Origin: a virus
Length of the DNA: 64,000 bases
Strand: one strand, 5' to 3'
IMG/VR virus record: IMGVR_UViG_3300046804_002762
Coordinates: 31,681 to 95,680 of that record
Positions 1-15,614 of this stretch are shown in pieces (positions within the stretch are counted from its first letter, which is position 1; each line of letters starts with the position of its first letter). A program made the translations under genes and the position numbers. Under the pieces are notes generated by a model that saw only the letters and a program-made list of their open reading frames with translations, was not told the origin of the DNA and ran no database searches.

Positions 1-57
1 TAAAAAAGAAGAATAAATAATTACACCTATTGAGACTGCAATTTCATAGGTAAGATT

Positions 58-80
58 AGGTGCTCTTATGAGCACCTTTT
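58..80 (+). terminator. Rho-independent terminator
   Basis: An 8-bp perfect stem, AGGTGCTC / GAGCACCT, with a TTAT loop, followed by TTT. It should end transcription arriving from upstream of the window, just before the late promoter of the HNH gene. Confidence 0.8.
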
Positions 81-84
81 CTAT

Positions 85-92
85 TATAAATA
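85..92 (+). promoter_or_regulatory. T4-type late promoter TATAAATA
   Basis: Exact match to the T4 late promoter consensus (gp55/gp33-dependent in T4), lying between a terminator and the HNH gene. The predicted RNA start, about 5-7 bases downstream, falls at the edge of the 3' arm of the outer inverted repeat. Confidence 0.75.
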
Positions 93-117
93 TTAGTGCA
101 GTCTCAATAGAATAGAA

Positions 118-753
118 ATGAATTATCTAAAGGTTTATTGTAATCTAATCAGGAAAGCAGAGAACAGAATTCCTCCTGAAGATTATACGGAAAAGCACCA
201 TATATTTCCAGTAAGCATTTACGGAAAAAATGATAAAATTGCAATTCTTACTGGAAGAGAGCACTATATCGCACACGAATTGCTGGAAAGAATTTTTATA
301 AAACGATATGGATTAAAGGACAAAAGAACTATTAAAATGATAAACGCTGTTATTGCTATGAAAGGTAATGGTAATTATATTAATTCATATCTTTATGAGA
401 AAAGTAGAAAAAGATTTTCAAATTCTTTAAAAAGTATTCCAAAATCGGAAGAGCATAGGAAGAAAATGTCAGAGGCTTCAAAAAGAAGATATGAGAATAT
501 GGAGGAAAGAAAAAAGACATCAGAGCAGATGAAAAAATATCATAAAAATATTGATACAACTGGAAAAAATAATTCGAATTATAATAATGGATGTTATTAT
601 GAATTAACAAGTCCACTTGGAGAAATAGGTTATACGAATAAATTGGATGTTTTTTGTAAAAGAAATGATTTATCCAGGTCTGGTTTTTGGAAAGTCATAA
701 CATATAAACAAAAGAAAGACCACAAAGGATGGTCGGTTAGAAAACTGGACTAA
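118..753 (+). CDS. HNH homing endonuclease with NUMOD3-type DNA-binding segment
   Basis: A 211-aa free-standing homing endonuclease that probably cuts phage DNA lacking this gene so the gene spreads by repair. The N-terminal HNH domain shows EKHHIFP (His27-His28), Asn38 and REHYIAHELL (His49, His53), the usual ββα-metal layout of phage HNH enzymes. Around residues 109-124 a SEEHRKKMSEA segment matches NUMOD3-like DNA-binding repeats, and the C-terminus (about 160-211) resembles the HTH-like tail ending in HKGW seen in this class. The start is the first ATG after the late-promoter cassette; there is no clear Shine-Dalgarno. The target site cannot be told from the window. Confidence 0.85.
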   Translation: MNYLKVYCNLIRKAENRIPPEDYTEKHHIFPVSIYGKNDKIAILTGREHYIAHELLERIFIKRYGLKDKRTIKMINAVIAMKGNGNYINSYLYEKSRKRFSNSLKSIPKSEEHRKKMSEASKRRYENMEERKKTSEQMKKYHKNIDTTGKNNSNYNNGCYYELTSPLGEIGYTNKLDVFCKRNDLSRSGFWKVITYKQKKDHKGWSVRKLD

Positions 754-756
754 TAA

Positions 757-785
757 TAGACAATCTGTAAAACCTGTGCTATGAT
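757..785 (+). promoter_or_regulatory. Sigma70-type promoter
   Basis: TAGACA (757-762), a 17-base spacer, then TATGAT (780-785), 24 bases before the ATG at 809. A good match to a host sigma70/SigA promoter, so the following gene is probably early. Confidence 0.65.
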
Positions 786-808
786 ATAGATACAAATTAA
801 TTAAACGG

Positions 809-1456
809 ATGGATTACAAAAAGTATTCTCTTGAAAATCTTGAGAAGTGGATTGAAGACGCAATCAATAGTAGTGAAGCATCGCCACAAGAAATTTATGA
901 TGTTATCAAAAATGTAGTGAGTGATAACTATTATTGCTACAAAAATCACACTGAAAGGTGTTATGAACTTCTTGCTCTTCTGAATGGTAATGGGAGGGGA
1001 CATATTCCAGCATACGATGAATATGTTGAGAAAAAAGAAAATCTTGTATGTGATAAAGATGATAAGTCTCCCAAGTGTCAAAAAGCATGGAGTGATTTTT
1101 GGGAAGAGAATTATTATCCTGAAGAGCATAATCAATACACTGAAGAAGAACTGAACGCAATGTGCGACAAGGCAGCATCAGACCAAGAAAAACAAAAGTG
1201 TCGTGAATATAACCTGCGTGAGGCAGAGTATTATGACAAGAGAGCAGAACTTGATGCTAAAAAAGATAAAGTAGTCAAATGGAAACTTCCTGTTGAGATT
1301 GATGGTATGAGCGGTGAGTATTATGTTAACTTCCCTGATGACTTGATGGAAGCAGCAAATATTGGAGAGAATGATATGGTAGAATGGATAGATCAAGGCA
1401 ATGGGTCATATTTTTTGCGTAAAGTAACTAAACCTATTGGAATTGATGAGTGCTGA
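809..1456 (+). CDS. Hypothetical acidic protein with AbrB-like C-terminal segment
   Basis: 215 aa. Residues 1-150 are rich in Glu, Asp and Lys with several Cys. The C-terminal ~50 residues (LPVEIDG, FPDDLMEAANIGENDMVEWID) resemble the small SpoVT/AbrB-like swapped-hairpin segments common in phage proteins, with the LPDDLL...G-D-EW pattern. The function of the long N-terminal part is unknown. It is preceded by a sigma70-like promoter and overlaps the next reading frame by one base (TGATG). Confidence 0.7.
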   Translation: MDYKKYSLENLEKWIEDAINSSEASPQEIYDVIKNVVSDNYYCYKNHTERCYELLALLNGNGRGHIPAYDEYVEKKENLVCDKDDKSPKCQKAWSDFWEENYYPEEHNQYTEEELNAMCDKAASDQEKQKCREYNLREAEYYDKRAELDAKKDKVVKWKLPVEIDGMSGEYYVNFPDDLMEAANIGENDMVEWIDQGNGSYFLRKVTKPIGIDEC

Positions 1457-1683
1457 TGGTTAAATTCATCAATGCTTGTTTAAATGGATTGATATACAGC
1501 ACGGGAAATATCTGTGTTGTTGACTATCCAAATCCATCTGTGGTAAAATATTATGAATCTGGTAAGTCCTGTTATGTCAACGGGATTTTTTATACTAAAT
1601 GTGAGGATAGATTAAATGGCTCTTTCGCAACAAACCCTGGAACATCTTCTGGAAGCAGAATCACACCTTCGTACTGCAATTAA
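1456..1683 (+). CDS. Doubtful small hypothetical protein
   Basis: A 75-aa frame starting in a TGATG junction with the preceding gene, which favours translational coupling. The last 22 codons lie over the better supported gene at 1616 in another frame, and that tail (Ser/Gly/Thr-rich) looks like a shadow. No family recognised. The real product, if any, may be poorly constrained at its C-terminus. Confidence 0.35.
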   Translation: MVKFINACLNGLIYSTGNICVVDYPNPSVVKYYESGKSCYVNGIFYTKCEDRLNGSFATNPGTSSGSRITPSYCN

Positions 1684-1840
1684 ATCCGCGGCTTCTAATG
1701 AAAAACCTTTGGTAGTTAAACAACTCTCACAACTTCTTTTTGATATAGAGCAATGTAAGAAGTTTGAGGAATTGATGGATATGATTGATAATAGAAACCC
1801 TGGAAGTAGGGGATCTTTTGGTTCTTTATTTGATGACTAA
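1616..1840 (+). CDS. Conserved small cyanophage protein of unknown function
   Basis: 74 aa, mostly helical. The N-terminus (MALSQQTLEHLLEAESHLR) is one I recognise as a conserved small T4-like cyanophage family, which is why this frame is preferred over the overlapping 1456 frame. Two predicted helices are followed by a Gly/Ser/Phe tail. No function is known. Confidence 0.7.
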   Translation: MALSQQTLEHLLEAESHLRTAIKSAASNEKPLVVKQLSQLLFDIEQCKKFEELMDMIDNRNPGSRGSFGSLFDD

Positions 1841-1928
1841 GAAGTGTTAAGTAATTCCAAAGACATTCTTAAGAATTCTTTATTTTGATAGATAAGATGT
1901 TATGATAGCAACACAATATTCGCGAATT

Positions 1929-2093
1929 ATGACCCTTCCATCAAAAAACAATAATAAACTCACCGATTCAGAATTTAATGAAATGGTTGCTCTTAAGAAT
2001 GCAATCAACTATGATATTGCTCAAGTTGTTCCTGAAAAAATGGAAACATTTACGGAATATTTTGTAAGGAGTTTAAAAGAACGTGGCGGTTGA
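1929..2093 (+). CDS. Conserved small cyanophage protein of unknown function
   Basis: 54 aa from the ATG of MTLPSKNNNKLT. An in-frame ATG lies 27 bases earlier, but the shorter start is preferred because conserved relatives begin with MTLP and because a TATGAT box at 1901-1906 would put the RNA start after the earlier ATG. The pattern LTDSEFNEMVALKNAINYDI is typical of a conserved cyanophage family. Function unknown. Confidence 0.65.
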   Translation: MTLPSKNNNKLTDSEFNEMVALKNAINYDIAQVVPEKMETFTEYFVRSLKERGG

Positions 2094-2104
2094 ATAAGTG
2101 TCAC

Positions 2105-2134
2105 AAGGGGGGATTTACAAGTCCCTTTTTTTAC
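2105..2134 (+). terminator. Probable terminator
   Basis: A G-run and C-run pair (GGGA / TCCC, extendable by G-U pairs) followed by seven T. It lies 12 bases after the stop of the gene ending at 2093. The stem is weak, so confidence is moderate. Confidence 0.5.
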
Positions 2135-2142
2135 TCTATAGT
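2114..2142 (+). promoter_or_regulatory. Sigma70-type promoter with TATAGT -10
   Basis: TTTACA (2114-2119), a 17-base spacer and TATAGT (2137-2142), 21 bases before the ATG at 2164. The same TATAGT -10 occurs in the 37-base repeats of the 6-23 kb region. It overlaps the preceding terminator. Confidence 0.55.
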
Positions 2143-2163
2143 CTTTTTAAGATAAACTCAAAA

Positions 2164-2571
2164 ATGAATTTCAAAACAGTTTTGCTTGCGTCAGTGTTTG
2201 TTGCACCAGTTCCTGTATTTGCACAACAAACAAACATTTATCAAGTCTGTACTAACTATCAAGAGAATTATTCACCTGGATATTATGATAGTTATGGAAA
2301 TTATGTTCAGGGAAGAGTAAATACTGAAAGTTATAATGTTCAATGTGGAACTGGTACATATTATCGTCCCAACGGAGGTAATGTTTATCAATCACCAGTA
2401 GTTGCTCCTGTGGCACAACCTAGAGGATATTGTTCTCCTGCAAGAACTACTCTTGGTGGACTTTTAGGAGGAGGAATTGCTGCTGCAGTTTCTAAAAAAA
2501 ATGCTTGGAGTTGGGCAATTCCTCTGGGTGTAGTACTGGGAACTGGTGCAGCAAACGTAAATTGTTACTGA
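2164..2571 (+). CDS. Secreted or periplasmic protein with signal peptide
   Basis: 135 aa. Residues 1-20 form a Sec signal peptide (basic start, hydrophobic LLASVFVAPVP core, VFA before QQ as a likely cleavage site). The mature part is Tyr/Asn/Gly-rich with Cys at about 29, 59, 92 and 134, and residues 98-128 hold a Gly-zipper-like hydrophobic stretch (GGLLGGGIAAAV, LGVVLGTGAA) able to sit in a membrane. The 2098 GTG upstream is rejected as a start because that stretch contains the terminator and promoter. The role is unknown; envelope modification or superinfection exclusion are guesses. Confidence 0.7.
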   Translation: MNFKTVLLASVFVAPVPVFAQQTNIYQVCTNYQENYSPGYYDSYGNYVQGRVNTESYNVQCGTGTYYRPNGGNVYQSPVVAPVAQPRGYCSPARTTLGGLLGGGIAAAVSKKNAWSWAIPLGVVLGTGAANVNCY

Positions 2572-2679
2572 ATATGGAAGCGGTACAGAGACCTTGTGAC
2601 AATTGAAGAAGTGGCACACAAATCTCCACAAGAGGCACAAAAGACCCTATAGTACATTTGTTGATTTGAGGAACCTACC

Positions 2680-3090
2680 ATCGCCACTCGCTCTCGCATC
2701 GGTCTTGAACTTAAGAACGGCAGTATTCTGTCTGTCTATCATCACTGGGATGGTTATCCTGAGTGGTTGGGTCGTATTCTTACTACTCACTACAATACTC
2801 GTGCTAAAGCAGCAGAACTGATTGATGGTGGTGATATGAGTTCTGCTTGGACTAATGCTGGTTGGAATAACGAAACCCGCGCACAAGGTCCGCTGTATTA
2901 TACCGAGCGTGGTGATGAGTTTATTGCCCCTCGCCTTGATGCTGATCTGTGTGAGTATCTGAATAACACTAGTGAAGTGTATGCTTATGTCTTCCGTAAT
3001 GGTCAGTGGGTATGCTATAATATGAATCTGTTTGATGATACTAAACTCCCTGAAATCGTTGAAATTCCCTCTGGTGCTCTTGCTGTCTGA
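2680..3090 (+). CDS. Conserved cyanophage protein, apparent AUC start
   Basis: 136 aa, beginning (I)ATRSRIGLEL. I recognise the family as starting MATRSRIGLEL and continuing SVYHHWDGYPEWLG, DGGDMSSAW and GPLYYTERG, so the full protein begins at the ATC at 2680. A Shine-Dalgarno GAGGAA lies six bases before that ATC and no ATG, GTG or TTG lies between the upstream in-frame stop (2662) and it. Either AUC is used as a rare start, or a point mutation destroyed ATG and translation restarts at the TTG at 2767. Function unknown. Confidence 0.7.
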   Translation: MATRSRIGLELKNGSILSVYHHWDGYPEWLGRILTTHYNTRAKAAELIDGGDMSSAWTNAGWNNETRAQGPLYYTERGDEFIAPRLDADLCEYLNNTSEVYAYVFRNGQWVCYNMNLFDDTKLPEIVEIPSGALAV

Positions 3091-3093
3091 CCT

Positions 3094-3285
3094 ATGAAAA
3101 CTTCTACTGCTATTGGTGTTATTGCTGGTGCTATTGTTATTGTAACTGTTAGCATCTTATTTGAAGCGTGGTTGCTTGGACTGATTCTATCTTGGTTTAA
3201 TGTATTCTTGACCTTCGGGCAGAACCTTGCTATTGTGGTTCTTGCTAATATGATTTTCAAAAACTCTGGGAGTTCTTCTAAATGA
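3094..3285 (+). CDS. Small integral membrane protein
   Basis: 63 aa with two strongly hydrophobic segments (about residues 6-28 and 30-56) and a short polar Ser-rich tail. First of a run of overlapping tiny genes; its TGA overlaps the next ATG (ATGA). No family recognised. Confidence 0.65.
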   Translation: MKTSTAIGVIAGAIVIVTVSILFEAWLLGLILSWFNVFLTFGQNLAIVVLANMIFKNSGSSSK

Positions 3286-3440
3286 ATCGTAAGTACATCA
3301 CCGTATTTGCATTAGGTTTCCTTGCTATGATTGGTTGGAATGTCTTTCTAGTACAACGCGATGAGCGAATGTATGATGCTTATTATCGCACAAAAGCGAT
3401 AGAGAACCTCAAAACTCCTCCAAGTAATCAAATTAGGTGA
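3282..3440 (+). CDS. Small single-pass membrane protein
   Basis: 52 aa, MNRKYITVFALGFLAMIGW start: a basic N-terminus and one transmembrane segment (about 5-24), then a charged helical tail. Overlaps the previous gene by 4 bases and the next by 4. Size and topology resemble spanin or regulatory micropeptides, but there is no specific evidence. Confidence 0.6.
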   Translation: MNRKYITVFALGFLAMIGWNVFLVQRDERMYDAYYRTKAIENLKTPPSNQIR

Positions 3441-3535
3441 TTTACTTTCTTCTCATTTCTGCGGCATTTGGATGGTTCTTTTTTGTACTATTCTCTAAAC
3501 ATTTTGATTACCTAGACGAACACAAACGCAAATGA
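3437..3535 (+). CDS. Tiny membrane protein, GTG start
   Basis: 32 aa starting with GTG in a GTGA overlap with the previous stop. One transmembrane helix (IYFLLISAAFGWFFFVLF) followed by a charged tail (DEHKRK). Supported mainly by position in a tightly overlapping chain and a sensible membrane topology. Confidence 0.5.
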   Translation: MIYFLLISAAFGWFFFVLFSKHFDYLDEHKRK

Positions 3536-3669
3536 TTCCACAACGTATTCGAGAACTGATTATGAACGCAGAACGTGAAAAGATTGCCCGTGAGTTTTGG
3601 GAGGAAATTGAACAGGAAGCAGCAAAACTTGAAGTAACTGTGGACTATTATCTTGCTGAGTTTTACTGA
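3532..3669 (+). CDS. Conserved small protein with VDYYLAEF C-terminus
   Basis: 45 aa, charged and helical, ending KLEVTVDYYLAEFY. The same C-terminal pattern (KIGVTIDYFLDEF) occurs in the gene at 18356, so the two belong to one family. ATGA overlap with the previous gene. Function unknown. Confidence 0.6.
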   Translation: MIPQRIRELIMNAEREKIAREFWEEIEQEAAKLEVTVDYYLAEFY

Positions 3670-3767
3670 TGACTTTTATTCTTGGTATGCTTACTGGTAT
3701 TCTTTTGACAGTCGGAACATCCCTTATTGTTGCTTCCAACATTGACAAAGAAGACAATCAATTCTAA
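3669..3767 (+). CDS. Tiny membrane protein
   Basis: 32 aa, one transmembrane segment (FILGMLTGILLTVGTSLIVA) and an acidic tail. Its ATG overlaps the previous TGA (TGATG). Last of the chain of overlapping micro-genes that begins at 3094. Confidence 0.55.
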   Translation: MTFILGMLTGILLTVGTSLIVASNIDKEDNQF

Positions 3768-3793
3768 ACTTAAGAGGTAAATTACACAAAAAA

Positions 3794-4033
3794 ATGGCAC
3801 AAAAGTTTCTCTATATCTTGGACTATTTCGTTCCACAGTTTCAATCGGAATATGGTGGATTGCTTAACGTAATCGCAGAAAATGATGAAGAATGTTTTGA
3901 TGTTGTTGTTGAATGGGATAATGAAACCTGGACAGAATACTACAGCAAACTACGAGAAAACATTGTAAAAGCACAACGCTTTCCTCTTCTTGAAAACGAA
4001 GAATCTTGTGTAGTTGAATCCTTTACGACCTGA
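3794..4033 (+). CDS. Conserved cyanophage protein of unknown function
   Basis: 79 aa, acidic. The N-terminal pattern LDYFVPQFQSEYGGLLNVIAENDEECFD is one I recognise from a conserved T4-like cyanophage family. Preceded by a purine-rich AAGAGGT about 14 bases upstream of the ATG. The stop overlaps the next start (TGATGA). Function unknown. Confidence 0.65.
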   Translation: MAQKFLYILDYFVPQFQSEYGGLLNVIAENDEECFDVVVEWDNETWTEYYSKLRENIVKAQRFPLLENEESCVVESFTT

Positions 4034-4194
4034 TGATTGACACATCTTTGAATCGTCTTGAGTTTAATCTGAAGCAACAGTATCAAGAACGCATTACATT
4101 TTTACAACAAAAGATCACAGAACAACAGCACGAAATACTGAGACTTCAGGAGCAAATCAAATATATGTCAAAAGATAAGTTCTATGACTGTTGA
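4033..4194 (+). CDS. Small coiled-coil protein
   Basis: 53 aa. Residues 5-45 are a Gln/Glu/Lys-rich heptad-like helix (LKQQYQERITFLQQKITEQQ). It overlaps the start of the next gene by 11 bases. Function unknown. Confidence 0.55.
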   Translation: MIDTSLNRLEFNLKQQYQERITFLQQKITEQQHEILRLQEQIKYMSKDKFYDC

Positions 4195-4477
4195 ACTTCC
4201 ATCTTCTTTCTTTCATTCTCCCCCAAAAGGATATTATTATGAAGCAACTGAGTTCAAACGAAATGTTATCAGTATTTGGTTATGTAATACTCGCAAGTTT
4301 GACTATAATAATGGTGCTGAAACCAGAACTATACACTCCTTCTACAACACCAAAACCAGAGAATATTTTGCCCCGATCAATAGTAGAACCATCGGTGCTT
4401 GTGTAAATATCAAGAACACGCGGAACTATACCGCGATGCCGATAAACCAATCAATTCTGGAGTCTTGTTTCGTATGA
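4184..4477 (+). CDS. Conserved cyanophage protein of unknown function
   Basis: 97 aa. SFFHSPPKGYYYEATEFKRNVISIW, then FYNTKTREYFAPINS and YTAMPIN match a family I know from cyanophages. The alternative frame starting at 4191 encodes a hydrophobic peptide but is judged a shadow. Overlaps the next gene by 4 bases (ATGA). Confidence 0.7.
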   Translation: MTVELPSSFFHSPPKGYYYEATEFKRNVISIWLCNTRKFDYNNGAETRTIHSFYNTKTREYFAPINSRTIGACVNIKNTRNYTAMPINQSILESCFV

Positions 4478-4650
4478 TCATCGAAGAGGGAACCGAAGTC
4501 ATTTACAAAAGCATTTCTGGAGTGATTGCATTTGCCTCTGATCAATATGTCTCAATTCTTTTCAGAAAAGGAAAACACAAATCTCAAGATGTGAAGATCG
4601 TAGTTTATCAAGAAGATTTTAAGAATGTTGTGCTAGCAGATGGAAAATGA
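4474..4650 (+). CDS. Conserved small β-rich cyanophage protein
   Basis: 58 aa from the ATG in an ATGA overlap (MIIEEGTEVIYKSISGVIAF); the upstream in-frame extension from 4399 lies over the preceding gene and is rejected. The pattern EGTEV-KSI-G-AF and KIVVYQEDFK is a recognised conserved cyanophage family, possibly with an SH3-like barrel. Function unknown. Confidence 0.65.
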   Translation: MIIEEGTEVIYKSISGVIAFASDQYVSILFRKGKHKSQDVKIVVYQEDFKNVVLADGK

Positions 4651-4928
4651 AGAAGAGTAATAACTGGTGGCGATGGTGGGCAAAATCCATCGGAGAGAAA
4701 GCATCCAAATGTGATAAAGAAAGCGACACGGTTGCGGTTATTCGCACCGTGATTTTTGCTACTTATTTGATTACAAACTGCTTTATAGTGGCAGGCGTAA
4801 TTAGGCACTGGAATGATAAACCTCAAATTGAAATCTTTATTGAAAATCCTTATGAAGTACCTGGTACAGTATCTCCAACCCAAAAAGAAGGGTTACTCCA
4901 AGCAAACCGCAACTTTGCTTACGATTGA
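4647..4928 (+). CDS. Conserved small membrane protein
   Basis: 93 aa. The N-terminus MKKSNNWWRWWAKSIGEKAS is basic and Trp-rich, followed by a transmembrane helix (about 34-55, VIFATYLITNCFIVAGVI) and a soluble tail. I recognise the N-terminal pattern from other cyanophages. Overlaps the previous gene (ATGA). Function unknown. Confidence 0.65.
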   Translation: MKKSNNWWRWWAKSIGEKASKCDKESDTVAVIRTVIFATYLITNCFIVAGVIRHWNDKPQIEIFIENPYEVPGTVSPTQKEGLLQANRNFAYD

Positions 4929-4998
4929 TGATGCAGAATTCTGGTGTAAAGTGATAGAAAAGAAAGGTGCAAAGGATATAAAGATATTGGTTCAATAA
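4915..4998 (+). CDS. Possible micro-gene, TTG start
   Basis: 27 codons in a third frame after the previous gene: (L)LTIDDAEFWCKVIEKKGAKD. The DAEFWC...KGA-DI pattern looks protein-like and fills the space to 4998, but the only start is TTG and the overlap is 14 bases. Kept at low confidence. Confidence 0.3.
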   Translation: MLTIDDAEFWCKVIEKKGAKDIKILVQ

Positions 4999-5017
4999 AT
5001 AACTAAAAAGTATTAAA

Positions 5018-5185
5018 ATGAAACCAACACCCAGACAACTTCAAGAAACTTATAAAATTCACGATCAACTCGTAGAGCATCTTATCTCTGAAGGATATGC
5101 TGATGATGAAAAATCTGCAGATAACATTATCAACGGAATGAGCGAAACTTGGTTTAATTTGATTATTAACGATAATAATTCTTGA
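5018..5185 (+). CDS. Conserved small cyanophage protein
   Basis: 55 aa, too short to be obvious, but MKPTPRQLQETYKIHDQLVE and EGYADDEKSADNIINGMSE match a family I recognise from cyanophages. An AATAAATA box (4995-5002), the late-promoter-like core seen before virion genes, lies 16 bases upstream. Function unknown. Confidence 0.6.
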   Translation: MKPTPRQLQETYKIHDQLVEHLISEGYADDEKSADNIINGMSETWFNLIINDNNS

Positions 5186-5216
5186 TTATTTCAAATATAT
5201 CAAAACAAGAAGAAAG

Positions 5217-5807: not shown

Positions 5808-5850
5808 TACATAAATAATGATGCCTTAATTGACTCGCATCTTTAAGGTT

Positions 5851-5874
5851 GGAGAGGAGAAATCCTCTCCTTTT
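5851..5874 (+). terminator. Rho-independent terminator
   Basis: An 8-bp perfect stem GGAGAGGA / TCCTCTCC, GAAA tetraloop, TTTT tail. Ends transcription of the basic protein gene at 5217. Confidence 0.85.
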
Positions 5875-5876
5875 AA

Positions 5877-5884
5877 TATAAATA
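5877..5884 (+). promoter_or_regulatory. T4-type late promoter TATAAATA
   Basis: Exact late consensus, 6 bases after the terminator stem and 4 bases before the 3' arm of the outer inverted repeat, as in the two sister cassettes. Confidence 0.7.
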
Positions 5885-5913
5885 ATACTGCGAGTCAATT
5901 TAAGAGCAGAACT

Positions 5914-5999
5914 ATGGAAATCCAAAAGAGTATTACTATACCTATTATTCTTATGAAGAATGGGGTAGAGGATATATTGGCAGTATGGGAAAGAATTGA
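5914..5999 (+). pseudogene. Fossil of a GIY-YIG-type homing endonuclease
   Basis: From the ATG the open frame gives a meaningless 38-aa peptide, but after four codons the +2 frame reads EYYYTYYSYEEWGRGYIGS and stops at 5997. This looks like the N-terminus of a GIY-YIG family homing enzyme (RGYIG as the YIG motif). Adding one A to the A4 run at 5924-5927 would join ATG to that frame (MEIQKEYYYTYY). The gene therefore carries a one-base deletion and is truncated right after the YIG motif, where the 37-base module repeat follows. The family call rests on the motif pattern only. Confidence 0.6.
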
Positions 6000-6005
6000 T
6001 AAAAA

Positions 6006-6042
6006 CTTTGGGGCCTTGAAAGTGTTCTAATAATGTAAGCAC
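6006..6042 (+). promoter_or_regulatory. 37-base module repeat, copy 1
   Basis: Most diverged upstream-most copy: CTTTGGGGCC, TTGAAAGTGTTC, -10 AATAAT (6029-6034), then GTAAGCAC. The -10 offset (23 bases from the repeat start) equals that of all other copies, and here no ATG is embedded, which supports a promoter role. The gene start follows at 6053. Confidence 0.65.
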
Positions 6043-6052
6043 TCAAACTCAA

Positions 6053-6190: not shown

Positions 6191-6192
6191 TT

Positions 6193-6372: not shown

Positions 6373-6376
6373 ACTA

Positions 6377-6649: not shown

Positions 6650-6655
6650 GTAGAG

Positions 6656-9221: not shown

Positions 9222-9252
9222 ATCTCCTGTAGTTGCTTTTAGCACAAACACA

Positions 9253-10412: not shown

Positions 10413-10418
10413 TTCTAA

Positions 10419-10455
10419 CTTTGGGGCCTTGAAAGTGTTCCTATAGTGTAGTCAC
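10419..10455 (+). promoter_or_regulatory. 37-base module repeat, copy 4
   Basis: CTTTGGGGCC, TTGAAAGTGTTC, -10 TATAGT (10442-10447), GTAGTCAC. No embedded ATG; the gene starts at 10466. Confidence 0.75.
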
Positions 10456-10465
10456 CTATTCCCAA

Positions 10466-10735
10466 ATGACTTTTTACTGGACGTTCGTTGACACTCTTGT
10501 TAAGAACGTCGCTACCATCAGTGCCATTGTTGTTGGAGTCAGTCAGTTTCTGATTCGTTCATTTAATGAGAACAATGGTCGTGAAAAAGTTCGTGCTGCA
10601 ACGCTTCAATTCCTGAAGTTTGTTGATACGCTGATTGAATTTGGTAAAGCACAACTTTCTCCTGCTGAAGTAGTAGAGCAACCTCAAGTTGTACCTGCTA
10701 CTGTTACCAAAACCCGCAAGCGTCGTTCCGCTTGA
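10466..10735 (+). CDS. Conserved small membrane-anchored protein
   Basis: 89 aa: a transmembrane segment (about 13-32, VKNVATISAIVVGVSQFLI), then FNENNGREKVRAATLQFLKF and a basic Pro-rich tail. The NENNG-EKV pattern after the membrane helix recalls a cyanophage family. Start context CCAAATGACT. Followed by a terminator, so repeat 4 and this gene form a unit. Confidence 0.65.
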   Translation: MTFYWTFVDTLVKNVATISAIVVGVSQFLIRSFNENNGREKVRAATLQFLKFVDTLIEFGKAQLSPAEVVEQPQVVPATVTKTRKRRSA

Positions 10736-10748
10736 TAAACTGTCACAA

Positions 10749-10779
10749 GAGCACTTGCAATTCAGCAGGTGCTCCTTTA
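10749..10779 (+). terminator. Rho-independent terminator
   Basis: 10-bp stem GAGCACTTGC / GCAGGTGCTC (one G-U pair), AATTCA-type loop, CTTTATT tail. Confidence 0.75.
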
Positions 10780-10804
10780 TTGTACATTTGTTCTTGAAAC
10801 TCCA

Positions 10805-11008
10805 ATGATTTTCCTTACTGTTCCCGACCACGGTTGTGTTTATACTCTCTCGCAAGAAGATGGGGATGAGTTGTATTATGCTCCCATCTATGCAAATGGT
10901 AATGTAAATCTTGAGGAGTTTGCTCCTGTAGATTTAGATTCTGCAGATATGGATGAGATGGAACTCTTTGATATTCGCAATCGTCTTGCCAAACTGATGG
11001 AGGTTTAA
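10805..11008 (+). CDS. Hypothetical acidic protein
   Basis: 67 aa from ATG (MIFLTVPDHGCVYTLSQEDG); the longer frame from 10769 starts within the terminator tail and is rejected. The second half is strongly acidic (DLDSADMDEMELFDI). Function unknown. Confidence 0.6.
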   Translation: MIFLTVPDHGCVYTLSQEDGDELYYAPIYANGNVNLEEFAPVDLDSADMDEMELFDIRNRLAKLMEV

Positions 11009-11013
11009 TGTAA

Positions 11014-11050
11014 CTCTGGGGCCTTGAAACTGTACCTATAGCATAACCAT
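11014..11050 (+). promoter_or_regulatory. 37-base module repeat, copy 5 (ACTGTACC sub-variant)
   Basis: CTCTGGGGCC, TTGAAACTGTAC, -10 TATAGC (11037-11042), ATAACCAT. The AACTGTACC core is shared only with copy 6; the two flank the nuclease-methylase pair. Confidence 0.75.
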
Positions 11051-11058
11051 TAGACAAA

Positions 11059-11556
11059 ATGACTCCCGAACAGAGATTCCAACAACTATTTGAGGAAATG
11101 TATCAACTTTGTGAAGAGCAAGGTTGGGGAGATCCTTTCAGTTATGCTCGCTCCCGTGAGATTCATCTTGCTGGTATTCTTGGGCATAAAGTAGCAGAAA
11201 CCTATTCTGGTGCTGATGCTGTGGATGAAGATGGTGAATGTGAGTATAAATCTACCATTGCCAATTCTATCAATGGGACGTATAATGGTATCAGTGTTCA
11301 AGATACCTGGGAAGAGCAAGAGCGTTATTTAATTGAGGAGAAACTTGGTAAGTATTCCAATCACTATATTGCTCGCTATGAGGGTGGCAAAGTTGTAGAA
11401 GTTTGGAAACTGACTGGTGATAATGTGCTGATGGTTCTGCTTCCTAAACTAAAGAAAGATTGGGAGCGTAAGATTCACGGTAAGCACAAAGATCCCCGTC
11501 TCTCTGGTAATCTAACTAAGAAAGAAATCCAACAGTTTGGGACTCGCATTGTATGA
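11059..11556 (+). CDS. PD-(D/E)XK restriction-endonuclease-like protein
   Basis: 165 aa. After an N-terminal helical part, LGHKVAETYSGADAVDEDGECEYKST gives a plausible catalytic set (Asp53 or Asp56, Glu62, Lys64; E-Y-K), followed by NGTYNGISVQDTWEEQERYL, a pattern I know from small type II-like restriction nucleases in phages and bacteria, and a C-terminal KDPRLSGN motif. It would cut DNA. Its stop overlaps the start of an adenine methylase by 4 bases, so the two read like a restriction-modification pair. Specificity cannot be predicted. It could instead degrade host DNA. Confidence 0.6.
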   Translation: MTPEQRFQQLFEEMYQLCEEQGWGDPFSYARSREIHLAGILGHKVAETYSGADAVDEDGECEYKSTIANSINGTYNGISVQDTWEEQERYLIEEKLGKYSNHYIARYEGGKVVEVWKLTGDNVLMVLLPKLKKDWERKIHGKHKDPRLSGNLTKKEIQQFGTRIV

Positions 11557-12104
11557 CGATTGATAGTGGAAAACTAATGTATTCGGAGGGTAACAATGAC
11601 GAATGTTACACTCCGTTTTATGCTGTAACTCCCATTCTGAAGTATATTCCCAAAGATGCAAAAGTCTGGTGTCCTTTTGACACTGCTGAGAGCGAGTTTG
11701 TTAAGCAAATCTCCCAAACTCATAGTGTAGAATACTCTCACATAAGTGAAGGAAAAGATTTCTTTACCTATGAACCTTTTCACTGGGATGTGATTGTATC
11801 CAATCCACCATTCACAAACAAACGTAAGTTCTTTGAGCGAGCATTATCATTTGACAAACCATTTGCTCTGATTATGACTAACACTTGGTTGAATGATAGT
11901 GCTCCGAAGCAGTTGTTTAAGGACAAGGATTTGCAACTGTTGATGTTTGACAAGCGTATGAAGTTTAACAGTCCTGATGGTCGTCCAAACGACAAGATTA
12001 CGTTCAGTTCTAGTTACTACTGCTGGAACTTTCTTCCCAAGCAAATCATTATGGAAGAACTTAACATACCAAAGAGCACATCAGAAGCAAAACTTCCTCT
12101 ATAA
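11553..12104 (+). CDS. N6-adenine DNA methyltransferase-like protein
   Basis: 183 aa. NPPF (84-87, in DVIVSNPPFTNK) is the catalytic motif IV of N6-adenine methylases. VWCPFDTAESEF (38-49) stands where the SAM-binding motif I normally is but lacks FxGxG, as in the EcoRI-methylase-like family common in phages. KPFALIMTNTWL follows as motif VI-VIII region. It overlaps the upstream nuclease-like gene by 4 bases, implying co-translation. It may protect phage DNA against that nuclease, or act alone; activity is not assured because of the atypical motif I. Confidence 0.65.
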   Translation: MTIDSGKLMYSEGNNDECYTPFYAVTPILKYIPKDAKVWCPFDTAESEFVKQISQTHSVEYSHISEGKDFFTYEPFHWDVIVSNPPFTNKRKFFERALSFDKPFALIMTNTWLNDSAPKQLFKDKDLQLLMFDKRMKFNSPDGRPNDKITFSSSYYCWNFLPKQIIMEELNIPKSTSEAKLPL

Positions 12105-12110
12105 CACTAA

Positions 12111-12147
12111 CTCTGGGGCCTTGAAACTGTACCTATAGTATGAAGAA
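12111..12147 (+). promoter_or_regulatory. 37-base module repeat, copy 6 (ACTGTACC sub-variant)
   Basis: CTCTGGGGCC, TTGAAACTGTAC, -10 TATAGT (12134-12139), directly followed by ATGAAGAAC, whose ATG starts the next gene. Same sub-variant as copy 5. Confidence 0.75.
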
Positions 12148-13036
12148 CACTCACCTAGAACATCCTGAAGATAGCATCCTTACGGGTGATCTATCTGTGC
12201 TTGATTGGTTCTCTGAACCTGATAGTTCGATCAGTGTCAAGATAGATGGTGCTCCTGCCATAGTTTTTGGTACTGATCCTGAAACTGGTAAGTTTTTTGT
12301 GGGCACCAAGTCGGTATTCAACAAGAAAAAGATTAAGGTTAATTATAGTATTGAAGACATTCTGCGGAATCACGGTAACACTGTTCGCGTTGCAGAGATT
12401 CTTATTGCCTGCTTCGACAATCTGCCCCGAATTGATGGTATCATTCAAGGTGATTTCATTGGATACGGTGGAGACGACACTTATCGTCCCAACACTATCA
12501 CTTACAAGTTTCCGAATTGTGTAGAGGAAGCAATTATCTTTGCTCCTCACACTACCTATTCTGGTCCTAATTTGCGTGAGTGTGTTGCATCTTTCGGTGC
12601 AGATGTCCCTGACTGTGAGAATGTGAAATGGGTGCAACCTGAGGCATCTATTTGCCCTCATCGTGAGGATATTGAAGATGTGTGCAAGTTTGCTAAACAA
12701 ATGAGCACTCTATGTGAGTTCGTAAGTAACAAACAAGTAGCAGAACTCAAAAAAGTCATCAATTCCTACATTCGTGAGGGTAAGGAGGTGGATGAGCATG
12801 AAATTGCAGAAAATTTCGATGTTGATGTGAACCTGCTGCGACTGTGGAAGTTGGTGTATTCAATCAAGGTCGATTTGTTCTTCTTCATTGATGCTGACGA
12901 CAGTATTTCGTGTGAGATTGGTGGAAGGGAGTCTGTTCACGAAGGTTTCGTAATGACCAACAAGTTTGGTACTTACAAAGTAGTTGACCGCGCAGAGTTT
13001 AGCAGACTCAATTTTACACTTGAAAAGAGTTGGTAA
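12140..13036 (+). CDS. Nucleotidyltransferase (DNA/RNA ligase-like) protein
   Basis: 298 aa. KIDG (34-37, in SVKIDGAPAIV) fits ligase motif I with the nucleotidyl-lysine; GIIQGDFIGYG resembles the motif III region; EGFV (268-271) and YKVVD (279-283) fit motifs IV and V in the right order. It probably joins or caps nucleic acid ends via an AMP-lysine intermediate, though ligases of T4 type are longer and the substrate is unknown. HLEHPEDSILTG at residues 5-16 looks like the conserved N-terminus of this family, so the repeat-embedded ATG must be the start. Central residues 170-240 are helical. Confidence 0.6.
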   Translation: MKNTHLEHPEDSILTGDLSVLDWFSEPDSSISVKIDGAPAIVFGTDPETGKFFVGTKSVFNKKKIKVNYSIEDILRNHGNTVRVAEILIACFDNLPRIDGIIQGDFIGYGGDDTYRPNTITYKFPNCVEEAIIFAPHTTYSGPNLRECVASFGADVPDCENVKWVQPEASICPHREDIEDVCKFAKQMSTLCEFVSNKQVAELKKVINSYIREGKEVDEHEIAENFDVDVNLLRLWKLVYSIKVDLFFFIDADDSISCEIGGRESVHEGFVMTNKFGTYKVVDRAEFSRLNFTLEKSW

Positions 13037-13073
13037 CTCTGGGGCCTTGAAAGTGTCCTTATAGTATGAGCAC
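13037..13073 (+). promoter_or_regulatory. 37-base module repeat, copy 7
   Basis: CTCTGGGGCC, TTGAAAGTGTCC, -10 TATAGT (13060-13065), ATGAGCAC. The embedded ATG (13066) is in frame with the next gene, but the ATG at 13087 is the likelier start. Confidence 0.75.
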
Positions 13074-13086
13074 TGCACAAAGTCAA

Positions 13087-13263
13087 ATGATTAACCAAAT
13101 CGCTGAAATGATTGTGGATGCTGCTAATGATCCACGCACCGCCGATAACATCCGCGAAATGCACAAACACCCACAAGGTGCAGAAACTTTGCGTCTGATT
13201 GTGCGTGATAATGTAGCAGGTGCTGCTGATGTAGTTGCTAATGCTCTCTGGAACAATCTCTGA
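13087..13263 (+). CDS. Hypothetical small helical protein
   Basis: 58 aa from the ATG in context GTCAAATGA (65 aa if the repeat's ATG at 13066 is used). Ala-rich and helical (INQIAEMIVDAANDPR, VAGAADVVANALW). No family recognised. Confidence 0.55.
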   Translation: MINQIAEMIVDAANDPRTADNIREMHKHPQGAETLRLIVRDNVAGAADVVANALWNNL

Positions 13264-13270
13264 AACTAAA

Positions 13271-13624
13271 ATGACTACCACGTTCGCAGAATACGCTGCA
13301 CAGAAAGATGCACAAAACACAATCTATCTTAACATTGTTAAGTATGGTCTGATGCTATGTGATGCTCTGACCGCTGATGCGCCTGATAATTACTTCTATG
13401 AACTGGATAGTTCTGGTCGTAAGTATCATCGAATCTGGATGTACATTGGCGATCGTCGTGATAGCATCCACGCCTTTATTGATAAGAAAACAGGTTCAGT
13501 ATTGAAACCTGCAAGTGTAAAGGCACCTGCAAAGGGTGAGCGTTACAATCTCCTCTCTATTCCTTCCCGCGAGAAGTGTCTTGAGAGTGCAGATTGGTCG
13601 GGTGGTTATCTTTACGCAAAATGA
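13271..13624 (+). CDS. Conserved small cyanophage protein
   Basis: 117 aa from ATG in context CTAAAATGACT; the extension to 13235 overlaps the previous gene. KYHRIWMYIGDRRDSIHAFIDKKTG followed by KPAKGERYN-like and ECLESADWSGGYLY forms a compact α/β domain that I recall from cyanophages. Function unknown. Confidence 0.6.
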   Translation: MTTTFAEYAAQKDAQNTIYLNIVKYGLMLCDALTADAPDNYFYELDSSGRKYHRIWMYIGDRRDSIHAFIDKKTGSVLKPASVKAPAKGERYNLLSIPSREKCLESADWSGGYLYAK

Positions 13625-13833
13625 ACTACAAAGATCAACTGCTTCTTGAAATCAATCAAATCTGGCAGCAACTTACTGATGCTGGATGTAAAAATGCTGC
13701 TGATGGTGTAGATGCTGCGATTGCTTCTGCAGGTAATGACCTGACTAAGATTATGGCAGCGCACGATTATGCTTGCTGGCATTTACAAGAACTGGAAAAA
13801 ATGAGTTTGATTGATTCAACAATTATTGAGTGA
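13621..13833 (+). CDS. Hypothetical small helical protein
   Basis: 70 aa from the ATG in an ATGA overlap with the previous stop. Helical throughout (DQLLLEINQIWQQLTDAG, DYACWHLQELEKM). No family recognised. Confidence 0.55.
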   Translation: MNYKDQLLLEINQIWQQLTDAGCKNAADGVDAAIASAGNDLTKIMAAHDYACWHLQELEKMSLIDSTIIE

Positions 13834-13839
13834 AATGAA

Positions 13840-14337
13840 TTACTCTAACATCATAACCTTTACATAACCTTTATGTGACTTTCTATTACCTTTTGCTACA
13901 TTACATAGATGTGACTTTGAGAGATTATTCTCACGACAATACTTCGCAAGATTAGTAACTTCAATAACTTCTCCAGTTTCTTTAGTTAAAATCCAACTTT
14001 TTTCTGCTATTGTTCTACCTTCATTCTCAAACTTTTCTCTTTGAGATTTATTACCTTTCACTCCATTCTCTTTAACCTTATCTGGATTTTGTTCTCTCCA
14101 CTTTTTACCACCTTCTAAAATAACATCCATAAATGCTTTATTTCTTGCTCTTCTAAACTCTGGATTTTTTACATCACCTAAAATCATTTTGTAAGCACAA
14201 AAATCTTTATAATCTCCCAACAACTTCCACTCACAAAAGTGAAACATAGCGTGTTGAGTTGGTGTTACTTCCACAAGATTTGTTGGGTCGTCGGTCCCAC
14301 CTCTGTGTTTAGGAATGATGTGATGTTTGTGCTTCAT
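13840..14337 (-). CDS. HNH homing endonuclease (minus strand)
   Basis: 165 aa. HNH motif near the N-terminus: HKHHIIPKHRGG (His5, His6), Asn20 in DPTNLVEV, then TPTQHAMFHF (His29, His33), typical of phage homing enzymes. The middle is basic and repeat-like; the C-terminus (about 125-165, TNLAKYCRENNLSKSHLCNVAKG...HKGY) is a helix-turn-helix NUMOD1-type DNA-binding module. It opposes all its neighbours. A start-less C-terminal gene fragment follows immediately to the right (14342-14464), so it seems to have inserted into a small gene. Confidence 0.85.
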   Translation of the reverse strand: MKHKHHIIPKHRGGTDDPTNLVEVTPTQHAMFHFCEWKLLGDYKDFCAYKMILGDVKNPEFRRARNKAFMDVILEGGKKWREQNPDKVKENGVKGNKSQREKFENEGRTIAEKSWILTKETGEVIEVTNLAKYCRENNLSKSHLCNVAKGNRKSHKGYVKVMMLE

Positions 14338-14341
14338 TTTT

Positions 14342-14464
14342 AACCAAAGTTGCCATTATTATTTAGCACAATATTATGCTTTTGATAACACTACCGATCC
14401 TAAACTTCAACGCTTCATTTATACGGAGATCAAAAAGATTCTCATTCAGCAAGGTAAATGGTGA
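14342..14464 (+). pseudogene. C-terminal fragment of a gene split by the HNH insertion
   Basis: An open + frame with no start codon reads ...YYLAQYYAFDNTTDPKLQR and ends KKILIQQGKW before TGA (14462-14464). It runs back antisense into the HNH gene. A matching N-terminal stub may be ATGAATTAC at 13836-13844, left of the HNH gene, in the usual start context. The original product would be a small helical protein of the kind found in this region. Confidence 0.55.
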
Positions 14465-14474
14465 GCAACAGTAA

Positions 14475-14511
14475 CTCTGGGGCCTTGAAAGTGTCCCTAT
14501 AGTATGAGAAC
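14475..14511 (+). promoter_or_regulatory. 37-base module repeat, copy 8
   Basis: CTCTGGGGCC, TTGAAAGTGTCC, -10 TATAGT (14498-14503), ATGAGAAC. The embedded ATG (14504) is in frame; the ATG at 14528 has the better start context. Confidence 0.75.
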
Positions 14512-14527
14512 AACCACTGAAACCAAG

Positions 14528-14752
14528 ATGAACACCAACATCGTCTCCGAAATCTACTCCTATCACACGAATTGGAAGGAGGGTAAAGTCAACCAGATGT
14601 GGATTCAGCAAGTGAATGACAAGTTCATCGCTATTGCATACAATCCCGAAAAGAATGTTTCGATGCCTATGTCGAAACCCCGCACTTCCTACCAAGAGAC
14701 TCTCAAATGGGTTCGCGGTTGGTGTGGTACTTTCTGCACACTTCCTGCCTGA
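14528..14752 (+). CDS. Hypothetical small protein
   Basis: 74 aa from the second ATG (MNTNIVSEIYSYHTNWKEG), 82 aa from the repeat's ATG. Aromatic-rich β/α fold with a Trp/Gly/Cys end (WVRGWCGTFC). First of a run of six closely spaced genes. Function unknown. Confidence 0.55.
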   Translation: MNTNIVSEIYSYHTNWKEGKVNQMWIQQVNDKFIAIAYNPEKNVSMPMSKPRTSYQETLKWVRGWCGTFCTLPA

Positions 14753-14758
14753 TTGATT

Positions 14759-14845
14759 ATGCTAACCTCTGGAATCTTAGTCCTGGTTGCTTACTCTTTA
14801 GGAGCAGCACAAGTCCTTCTCGTCCAACACTTTCTTCGCAAATGA
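14759..14845 (+). CDS. Tiny membrane peptide
   Basis: 28 aa, MLTSGILVLVAYSLGAAQVL: one hydrophobic helix and a short basic end. Starts 6 bases after one gene and overlaps the next by 4 (ATGA), which supports it despite its size. Confidence 0.45.
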   Translation: MLTSGILVLVAYSLGAAQVLLVQHFLRK

Positions 14846-15027
14846 ATAAACTCACTAAAGCACAAAAAGAGATTCTTCTCACTCTTGAGAATGGAGATGA
14901 AGTTCTCAACTGGTCTCAACGGATGCGAGCACTTCAACCGCTGATTGATGCTGGTATTGTTTATATCAAAGAAACCAAAGATCCAAATGGTCATACAAAC
15001 AGTGTAAGAGTCGCACTGGTTGATTGA
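14842..15027 (+). CDS. Hypothetical small protein, possibly winged-helix-like
   Basis: 61 aa from the ATG of the ATGA overlap (MNKLTKAQKEILLTLENGDEV). Two helices, then IVYIKETKDPNG and HTNSVRVALVD as a β-hairpin, a layout like a small winged helix. The longer frame from 14707 overlaps two genes and is rejected. DNA binding is a guess. Confidence 0.55.
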   Translation: MNKLTKAQKEILLTLENGDEVLNWSQRMRALQPLIDAGIVYIKETKDPNGHTNSVRVALVD

Positions 15028-15191
15028 TGATGAAAAACTATCGCGTTCGTGTTGAAACTAACGATGGATGTGTGACGATTTGGTATGAGAAATCCAATGC
15101 AAAGACTGCGGACAAACTGATACTCAATCGGGTATACAATCAACTCTGTGGTCTAAACATTAAAGAAATCTCTGTTAATCCCTCTGTCTGA
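15027..15191 (+). CDS. Hypothetical small protein
   Basis: 54 aa (MMKNYRVRVETNDGCVTIWY); the adjacent second ATG is an equal candidate. β-strands, a central helix and a β-end. TGATGATG junction with the previous gene. Confidence 0.5.
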   Translation: MMKNYRVRVETNDGCVTIWYEKSNAKTADKLILNRVYNQLCGLNIKEISVNPSV

Positions 15192-15193
15192 TC

Positions 15194-15367
15194 ATGACTG
15201 ACCTTCGTTATTCTACTGGTGAGGAACTTGAGCAGTTCTTGTATGAGAAATGTCGTGAAGATGCTGACCTTCTGGCAACTATCATCAGCGAATATGTGTC
15301 CTCTCTGAGTGATAGCAAACTCTTTGAACTTGAGGACTTTCTTTCTAACAACTTTGGAGACGATTGA
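15194..15367 (+). CDS. Hypothetical small acidic protein
   Basis: 57 aa, acidic and helical (TGEELEQFLYEKCREDADLL, SDSKLFELEDFLSNNFGDD). Two bases after the previous stop. No family recognised. Confidence 0.5.
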   Translation: MTDLRYSTGEELEQFLYEKCREDADLLATIISEYVSSLSDSKLFELEDFLSNNFGDD

Positions 15368-15370
15368 ATT

Positions 15371-15514
15371 GTGAAATACGAAGTTAAAATGTATCAAGGT
15401 GGAAGAACTTTCGTTGAAGAAGTTTATGCTCCTGACCCCAAATCTGCAAGAGAGACTGCACAAGTTCGCAATCCTTCGTGTAAAGTTATTGGAGTAAATG
15501 TTTCTTTCAAGTAA
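15371..15514 (+). CDS. Conserved small cyanophage protein, GTG start
   Basis: 47 aa, KYEVKMYQGGRTFVEEVYA, then ARETAQVRNPSCKVIGV. The Y-V-MYQGGR-F-E pattern is one I recognise as a conserved cyanophage β-α-β protein. The start is GTG, 3 bases after the previous stop. Confidence 0.55.
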   Translation: MKYEVKMYQGGRTFVEEVYAPDPKSARETAQVRNPSCKVIGVNVSFK

Positions 15515-15553
15515 TAAATAATGATGCCTTAACTGACTCGCATCTTTAAGGTT

Positions 15554-15577
15554 GGAGAGGAGAAATCCTCTCCTTTT
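15554..15577 (+). terminator. Rho-independent terminator
   Basis: Stem GGAGAGGA / TCCTCTCC, GAAA loop, TTTT tail, identical to the hairpin at 5851-5874. Ends the small-gene run that starts at repeat 8. Confidence 0.85.
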
Positions 15578-15579
15578 AG

Positions 15580-15587
15580 TATAAATA
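15580..15587 (+). promoter_or_regulatory. T4-type late promoter TATAAATA
   Basis: Exact consensus, 6 bases after the terminator stem and 4 bases before the 3' arm, as at 5877. Drives the gene at 15615 late in infection if functional. Confidence 0.7.
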
Positions 15588-15614
15588 ATACTGCGAGTCA
15601 TTTCAAGAGCAGTT

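Follow-up and report, generated by a model that had tools for sequence, protein, structure and literature searches.

Among the described systems, the nearest by context to the element reported here are the hairpins of T4-type endonuclease genes (I-TevI, I-TevII, I-TevIII, segB and Aeh1 mobE) and of the T4 genes e and soc, in which a late promoter lies within the paired region, and in which read-through RNA hides the ribosome binding site and the late RNA does not; several of these genes encode homing endonucleases (PMC2988022, PMC3014915). These systems are not described as having a terminator between their arms, a second late promoter or a separate small RNA, and in the T4 I-TevII sequence the promoter occupies the loop of a single short hairpin. 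The closest parallel that has been studied is the RNA-OUT/RNA-IN pair of IS10: pairing is initiated between the loop of RNA-OUT and the 5' tail of RNA-IN, and the ribosome binding site becomes blocked (PMC4737173, PMC5006887). The present analysis deals with a repeated unit in a 64-kb stretch of viral DNA (hereafter the window; positions 31,681 to 95,680 of the 95.7-kb IMG/VR record IMGVR_UViG_3300046804_002762, designated G000), in which an intrinsic terminator and a late promoter lie inside an inverted repeat in front of homing-type genes, and in which a predicted small RNA may repress the endonuclease gene that follows. As in IS10, the loop of a hairpin is the complement of the first bases of a mobile-element enzyme's mRNA. 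RNA-OUT, however, originates from the opposite strand and its match is automatic, whereas both partners of the phage unit are encoded on the same strand and their match has to be kept by paired changes. Orthogonal pairs have been engineered from IS10; in the phage units such pairs appear naturally.

Among small phage RNAs, c4 of phages P1 and P7 and sar of phage P22 control a neighbouring mRNA, c4 and its target being located on one strand and c4 being processed from the transcript of its own target. The predicted small RNA of the phage unit has its own promoter motif and terminator, and its target is a homing endonuclease. The CfrI antisense RNA of cyanophage S-PM2 likewise adjoins a homing endonuclease gene (F-CphI), but it is encoded on the opposite strand and overlaps psbA. 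The mobile promoter/stem-loop (PeSL) cassettes of T4-type phages place a portable terminator plus promoter between genes; these promoters are early promoters, and antisense arms are not known from these cassettes.

The window contains three cassettes, each consisting of a terminator and a late promoter (P2, TATAAATA) inside paired arms, in front of start codons at 118 (site 1), 5914 (site 2) and 15615 (site 3). The perfect outer arms comprise 14, 12 and 9 bp, respectively, and are longer at site 2 if one bulged base is allowed. As claimed in the preliminary description of this DNA, the 3' arm starts 4 nt past TATAAATA at all three sites, P2 lies between the arms such that the late RNA, from its predicted start, lacks the 5' arm, and the upstream RNA that stops at the terminator ends in a complement of the late RNA's first bases. 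The observation was confirmed and proved to be larger in extent than first noted. An additional late-promoter motif, P1 (ATAAATA at 13, 5811 and 15514), had been missed, as had a small hairpin that starts 5-6 nt after P1, has the stem CCTAT/ATAGG at site 1 and CCTTAA/TTAAGG at sites 2 and 3, and carries most of the 5' arm in its loop at all three sites. Folded alone, the upstream pieces form the small hairpin and the terminator, with -25.9 kcal/mol (z -6.5) for the piece 20-84 of site 1 and -20.7 kcal/mol for each of the other two; z ranges from -3.7 to -6.5 over the three pieces. By itself, TATAAATA is not enriched (7 observed, 7.5 expected); it is the combination of parts that is non-random. 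Sites 2 and 3 are near-copies with 95% identity over 103 nt, so that the window holds about two independent cases. A fourth unit of the same genome is located beyond the window at G000:C1:18151.

We propose, with a probability of about 0.64, that the unit is a portable same-strand antisense cassette whose small RNA, made from P1, represses free-standing homing endonuclease genes. According to this model, the late promoter P1 (NTAAATA) would direct the synthesis of an RNA of approximately 50-60 nt composed of a 5' hairpin and an intrinsic terminator, with the loop of the hairpin representing the complement of the first 9-12 nt or so of the next mRNA. The late promoter P2 would in turn give rise to the endonuclease mRNA starting with the loop-complementary sequence. 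The loop would contact the mRNA 5' end, whereupon the 5' strand of the small hairpin would open and pair on towards the Shine-Dalgarno (SD) region, resulting in lower translation of the endonuclease. RNA passing the terminator would fold the same helix in cis and hence would also be shut, as in T4. Because the small RNA is a matched inverted copy on one strand and not the product of the opposite strand, the arm pairs could drift jointly and attain many private specificities. The firing of P1, the action of the small RNA in trans and repression as its effect are what we infer from the features described below.

Plain blastn searches of phage records with the cassette yielded almost nothing (E 0.4, with a single exception at 7e-4), since the arms drift, and two further blastn queries with other units returned S-SRM01 alone; an exact search retrieved two IMG/VR contigs. 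The weak matches pointed to the Synechococcus phages S-SRM01 and B23, in which unrelated sequences show the same layout, and this shared layout provided the basis for pattern searches. A gapped pattern of two ATAAATA motifs 50-80 nt apart was located five times in S-SRM01, each time with the hairpin-terminator layout, twice in G002 (both with the layout), once in G001 and twice in B23 (one with the layout), and not at all in S-PM2 and S-B05. A strict scan blind to the arms (TAAATA, terminator, TATAAATA) of S-SRM01, G000 and G002 (404 kb, both strands) resulted in 11 hits on the coding strand and none on the opposite strand, with readable arms in all 11, whereas B23 (244 kb) gave no hit, its three units carrying a variant terminator or P2. 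Four genomes contain a further 181 ATAAATA sites, of which five match at 8/9 or more, and four of these five represent units missed by the strict scan. A relaxed scan of four genomes for P2 and long arms only detected 12 sites on the coding strand, none on the opposite strand and one in reversed sequence; at least one of the 12, at S-SRM01 126149, is not unit-like in appearance. The isolated phage S-SRM01 contains seven units, one of which is a single-hairpin variant.

For the search of IMG/VR, the main pattern CACCTTTTCNNGTATAAATA names the terminator and P2 only; it occurs in at least 120 stretches, such that the totals are lower bounds. Eight of its 123 hits were located near contig ends and set aside, and merging of repeats left at least 83 distinct sites. 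Among the matches listed, P1 is present at 83 of 83 sites (TAAATA 62-73 nt upstream of P2), while TAAATA is contained in 5.9% of random 65-nt windows, and the arms exceed the 99% shuffle level at 82 of 83. The eight hits set aside comprise five with P1 and arms, two that are truncated by the contig before P1, and one, on the minus strand of L086 at 14352, that has neither. Over all fetched loci, at least 140 distinct arm-blind hits were obtained, 135 of them beyond the 99th percentile of shuffles; a chance hit (L097 2473) was dropped from the 140 before the subsequent pairing tests. A second pattern for the terminator yielded 24 hits, located in 24 stretches, and 15 of them remained once repeats had been removed. 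By eye, three of the 15 form a real hairpin, and all three have P1 and arms, whereas the 12 hits without a real hairpin have no P1, and their arms remain below the shuffle threshold. The three hits in cellular genomes likewise have neither P1 nor arms. The unit thus recurs across IMG/VR relatives as the repeated, portable element in front of homing-type genes that had been described from the window.

Both promoter motifs are followed by a purine at the sixth nucleotide, in 97% of P1 and 99% of P2 sequences (127 distinct units). According to PMC1524935, the T4 late promoter motif spans -13 to -6, and CTAAATA from -12 is the Aeh1 form. The position of the purine coincides with the T4 late start position, and the predicted start fits the 3' arm. 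The same base is a purine at 73% of 182 other coding-strand ATAAATA motifs of four genomes and at 50% of 36 motifs on the opposite strand. With a purine commoner here than at other ATAAATA motifs, P1 resembles a late promoter that has an extended sequence of its own. It reads ATAAATA or CTAAATA in 126 of 127 units, and its TAA serves as stop codon of the upstream open frame in 51 of 139. The promoter and the terminator of the small RNA are present as sequence features only, and the terminator belonged to the search pattern. Vacant sites gave a mixed picture: S-SRM01 19693 lacks ATAAATA, and S-SRM01 11751 and G002 37434 each have one. P1 may sometimes replace a resident promoter.

The pairing of the arms was counted in a fixed register for 96 distinct pairs, excluding the recombinant L199. 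Watson-Crick pairs account for 26% at position -2, 82% at -1, 100% at +1 to +3 and 91-98% at +4 to +8, with a drop after +10; the register was set by maximising pairs over +1 to +9, which favours those positions, not the boundary or the kind of mismatch. The non-Watson-Crick positions of the core comprise 27 G·U, no A·C and 16 other combinations, a spectrum that would be predicted for pairing between sense-strand RNAs, but not if the arms mattered as an inverted repeat in DNA. This count replaced an earlier one in the best-scoring helices (70 G·U versus 54 A·C), which was biased by the choice of helix. Leaders pair with their own antisense arm at 8.5 of 9 positions, compared with 5.7 for re-dealt leaders and a maximum of 5.9 over 200 deals (134 units). 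Since kinship among the units inflates pair counts, class-level figures are safer: the 42 seven-base leader classes of the sample stay matched, with a class-level mean of 8.5/9 for own versus 5.3 for other pairs, and they are also to be preferred to the 72 arm strings counted earlier, which include overlapping variants of one arm. The own pair is the row maximum in 38 of 42 classes and the sole maximum in only 28, so related classes still cross-match. The predicted duplex energy is -20.8 kcal/mol for cognate and -10.8 kcal/mol for non-cognate pairs, and the energy matrix of five S-SRM01 units is lowest on the diagonal. Moreover, one HNH gene at one site is preceded by either of two different matched arm pairs (L111/L175 versus L174/L124). 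Shared arms within one locus were found in 3 of 43 pairs, compared with 12.8% at random, so that avoidance is not convincing. A MAFFT alignment of 48 units was not used for pair counts, as the arms were shifted by one column in some rows. The RNA-level pairing of the arms is strongly supported by these sequence comparisons, and the conservation and covariation of the arms in relatives, on which the preliminary description had made its proposal depend, is evident from the 82 of 83 listed sites with matching arms and the 42 matched leader classes.

The helix appears to extend beyond the core. The outer strand of the small hairpin matches the leader beside the SD sequence, with a score of at least 3 in 124 of 134 units and in 16% of cases when swapped between stem types. 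Regarding the two strands of the small hairpin, 124 of 127 units exceed the median obtained with swapped strands, and the own type ranks first in five of eight stem types; a first shuffle test was weak, with 49 of 139 units above the 95% control. The small hairpin is accordingly supported less strongly than the arms, P1 and the spacing to the transcription start site, the support being moderate and not decisive. In folding predictions for 133 units, the unpaired fraction falls to 0.08 for the leader (0.77 in the late mRNA) and to 0.25 for the SD window (0.62 in the late mRNA), both with the small RNA bound and in the read-through RNA. The claim that read-through pairing covers the start holds in this prediction for the SD region and fails for the AUG.

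Most genes behind the unit are of homing-endonuclease type. Searches with 132 downstream proteins assigned 91 to phrog_314 and 54 to phrog_655, both homing endonuclease families, 68 to NUMOD3, six to GIY-YIG and four to HNH, with overlaps; some proteins, including that of site 3, have no family match. Among 136 downstream proteins of at least 45 aa, 121 fall into one similarity cluster and the rest into six small clusters. Conversely, four genomes have 27 endonuclease-like open reading frames (ORFs) with a length of 90 aa or more, and 15 of these are preceded by P1, P2 and arms, one of them by the single-hairpin variant. The unit occurs behind 113 upstream ORFs representing 64 clusters, and one site (a cluster of 19, of which 14 were listed) harbours different arms and different endonucleases.

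Variants of the unit were also detected. At S-SRM01 77540-77665, before gp152, and in S-B05 (L009 1340-1425), the antisense loop lies inside the terminator hairpin, and the next late RNA starts with the complement of this loop. The match extends into the start codon in the S-SRM01 variant, and that of S-B05 has no P1. The recombinant L199 (250-430) has an upstream half like L088, a downstream half with an HNH gene, and mismatched arms, which suggests crossing-over within the terminator/P2 stretch.

If the unit were a T4-type attenuator in cis and nothing else, leaked upstream RNA would fold the outer helix and hide the ribosome binding site, the late RNA, starting at P2 within the helix, would be translated, and P1 and the small hairpin would be incidental. 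This was the model of the preliminary description, and it is now partly supported. Such control is established for T4 e, soc and I-TevI and for Aeh1 mobE (PMC3014915, PMC2988022), the layout fits, the read-through RNA is predicted to mask the leader, and ATAAATA is already present at the vacant sites S-SRM01 11751 and G002 37434, so that P1 could in places be a resident promoter. As the same masking is predicted with the small RNA and with read-through RNA, folding cannot separate trans from cis. An attenuator needs no P1, yet P1 with its own extended sequence is present at all 83 sites among the matches listed; it needs no small hairpin, whose folding competes with that of the outer helix; and it does not predict the onset of pairing at the late +1. 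T4, furthermore, has no such unit at any of its 65 ATAAATA sites. P1, the loop hairpin and the pairing boundary at +1 thus favour a dedicated small RNA, and we regard attenuation in cis alone as unlikely. A small RNA that protects or activates, by shielding the mRNA 5' end from 5'-end-dependent decay or by setting ribosome access, and thereby yields more endonuclease, would be compatible with pairing from the first bases of the mRNA onwards and with an AUG that is predicted to stay as accessible as without pairing. The helix, however, heads towards the SD region in 124 of 134 units, and IS10, the closest studied system of loop and 5' end, represses according to PMC4737173 and PMC5006887, which renders activation distinctly improbable.

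The portability of the unit (64 clusters of upstream ORFs), the recombinant L199 and the presence of different endonucleases at the same site would also be expected if the inverted repeat acted at the DNA level, moving the cassette as a target of recombination or homing, with the RNA match as a by-product. This explanation is already disfavoured, and we give it very little weight, as 27 G·U versus no A·C in the core fits pairing of sense-strand RNA and the edge of the pairing coincides with the predicted start of transcription. Coincidence, or common descent of a few functionless sequences, could be suspected from the near-identity of sites 2 and 3 and from the kinship of many units; it is the least probable of the explanations and already refuted by P1 and the matching arms at the listed IMG/VR sites, by the fixed-register pairing and by the 42 leader classes that stay matched (8.5/9 own, 5.3 other); the pattern hits without a hairpin and in cellular genomes, which have no P1 and no matching arms, also speak against it. 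The arms, P1, the spacing to the start site, RNA-level covariation and the link to endonucleases all emerge from sequence statistics.

Several observations count against the proposed same-strand antisense repression itself. Covariation of the small hairpin is moderate, with 13 of 127 units exceeding the swapped 95% level, and in three of eight stem types a similar type slightly outscores the own type. No loss of accessibility is predicted for the start codon, the unpaired fraction of which changes from 0.45 to 0.53 (133 units), the late leader and the antisense core of the small RNA are only partly open (0.77 and 0.68 predicted), and read-through RNA is predicted to mask the leader equally well. 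Pairing at -1 (82%) reaches one base past the predicted start, and some non-cognate duplexes of related arms go down to -23.3 kcal/mol. Both P1 and matching arms are absent from the hit at L086 minus 14352, and L199 retains both promoters and the gene with mismatched arms. Twelve of the 27 endonuclease-like ORFs have no unit (seven with P2 only, five with neither), and no small-RNA cassette without an adjacent P2 was found in four genomes, where the pattern recovered only eight known units.

The coordinates of the three units and of their genes are listed in Table 1. The first 12 kb of the window match Synechococcus phages only in a search of a phage collection (seven records). The HNH-type protein of site 1, for which a Pfam match is absent at E 0.01, is 53.9% identical over residues 1-136 to gp297 of S-SRM01. 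The description of the site 2 gene as a GIY-YIG fossil was borne out by a frame shift followed by stops. The site 3 product had been called a NUMOD protein; it has no homing-endonuclease phrog, NUMOD3 or other Pfam match, and only its C-terminal part resembles homing-type proteins. At the corresponding position, L003 carries a GIY-YIG-like gene in place of the site 3 gene.

Table 1. Positions of the predicted elements and genes at the three sites of the window
Site	Feature	Position	Strand	Remarks
1	P1 late-promoter motif ATAAATA	13..19	+	predicted +1 = A25
1	Predicted small RNA, 56 nt	25..80	+	5' hairpin 25-30/46-51, antisense arm 27-40, terminator 58-77 plus U run
1	P2 late promoter TATAAATA	85..92	+	predicted +1 = G98; start site spacing according to PMC1524935
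1	3' arm TGCAGTCTCAATAG at mRNA 5' end	97..110	+	complement of 27-40
1	HNH-type homing endonuclease gene	118..753	+	phrog_655 homing endonuclease, E 2.6e-31
2	P1 motif ATAAATA	5811..5817	+	predicted +1 at 5823
2	Predicted small RNA, 52 nt	5823..5874	+	stem CCTTAA 5824-5829 / TTAAGG 5843-5848, antisense arm 5828-5839, terminator 5851-5870
2	P2 late promoter TATAAATA	5877..5884	+	predicted +1 = G5890
2	3' arm TGCGAGTCAATT	5889..5900	+	
2	Broken GIY-YIG endonuclease remnant	5914..6030	+	annotated frame 38 aa; adjacent frame KEYYYTYYSYEEWGRGYIGS, then stops
3	P1 motif ATAAATA	15514..15520	+	immediately after stop of upstream gene; predicted +1 at 15526
3	Predicted small RNA, 52 nt	15526..15577	+	stem 15527-15532 / 15546-15551, antisense arm 15534-15542, terminator 15554-15573
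3	P2 late promoter TATAAATA	15580..15587	+	predicted +1 = G15593
3	3' arm TGCGAGTCA	15592..15600	+	
3	Homing-type protein without recognised catalytic domain	15615..16148	+	C-terminus resembles gene adjoining F-CphI in S-PM2

Additional observations were made in the window and in related genomes. The sequence GGGGCCTTNAAAGTGT occurs with up to two mismatches at 14 places between 6010 and 22715 of the window, all on the plus strand (0.09 expected), and two of the copies are located directly downstream of the genes of sites 2 and 3; we take these repeats to be early-promoter-like, with a putative role as such. An HNH-type endonuclease gene without a unit lies on the minus strand at 13840-14337. 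L086, an IMG/VR contig of 14.4 kb, contains five units within 14 kb, the arms of which are all different. The vacant site S-SRM01 19693 has a terminator of its own, GGAGGAGAGAAATCTCCTCC, similar to the one within the unit that G002 (44255) carries at this place, as if the unit reused, or recombined at, resident terminators. At S-SRM01 162245, a late leader with a local perfect hairpin from about +1 precedes an HNH-like gene without a unit and possibly represents another type of control. The leader of F-CphI in S-PM2 was considered as an older member of the family and rejected, since it has a terminator and TATAAATA and lacks P1 and arms. A wcaG RNA motif (RF01761) is present in S-SRM01 (L005 1476-1573), upstream of the glycosyltransferase gene that precedes gp297.

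Rfam returned no match at or above the gathering score in the window, and in 13 loci the unit itself remained unmatched up to an E value of 1. No description of the unit was found in Rfam or in the open-licence PMC literature, a search that could miss a paper in a subscription journal, and neither 'promoter' nor 'terminator' occurs as a word in the main text of the S-SRM01 genome paper (PMC8557907). Antisense control of a mobile-element enzyme is known; the same-strand layout and the diversity of natural pairs were not found described. According to a 2010 review, no trans-acting T4 small RNA had been functionally characterised, and genomes of T4-related phages might suggest candidates (PMC3014915). 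The unit is a concrete and abundant small-RNA candidate of the kind anticipated there.

With slightly less confidence than in the repressing cassette as such, we consider it probable that the units constitute a widespread phage RNA family, in which each homing endonuclease has its own orthogonal, co-evolving pair of same-strand small RNA and leader, such that selfish genes would be silenced independently of each other and copies of the same element would silence one another. If this is true, the unit would show how selfish endonucleases stay quiet outside introns and would supply orthogonal RNA repressors of natural origin, their specificities numbering in the tens. It would also suggest that private RNA locks let several selfish elements share one genome.

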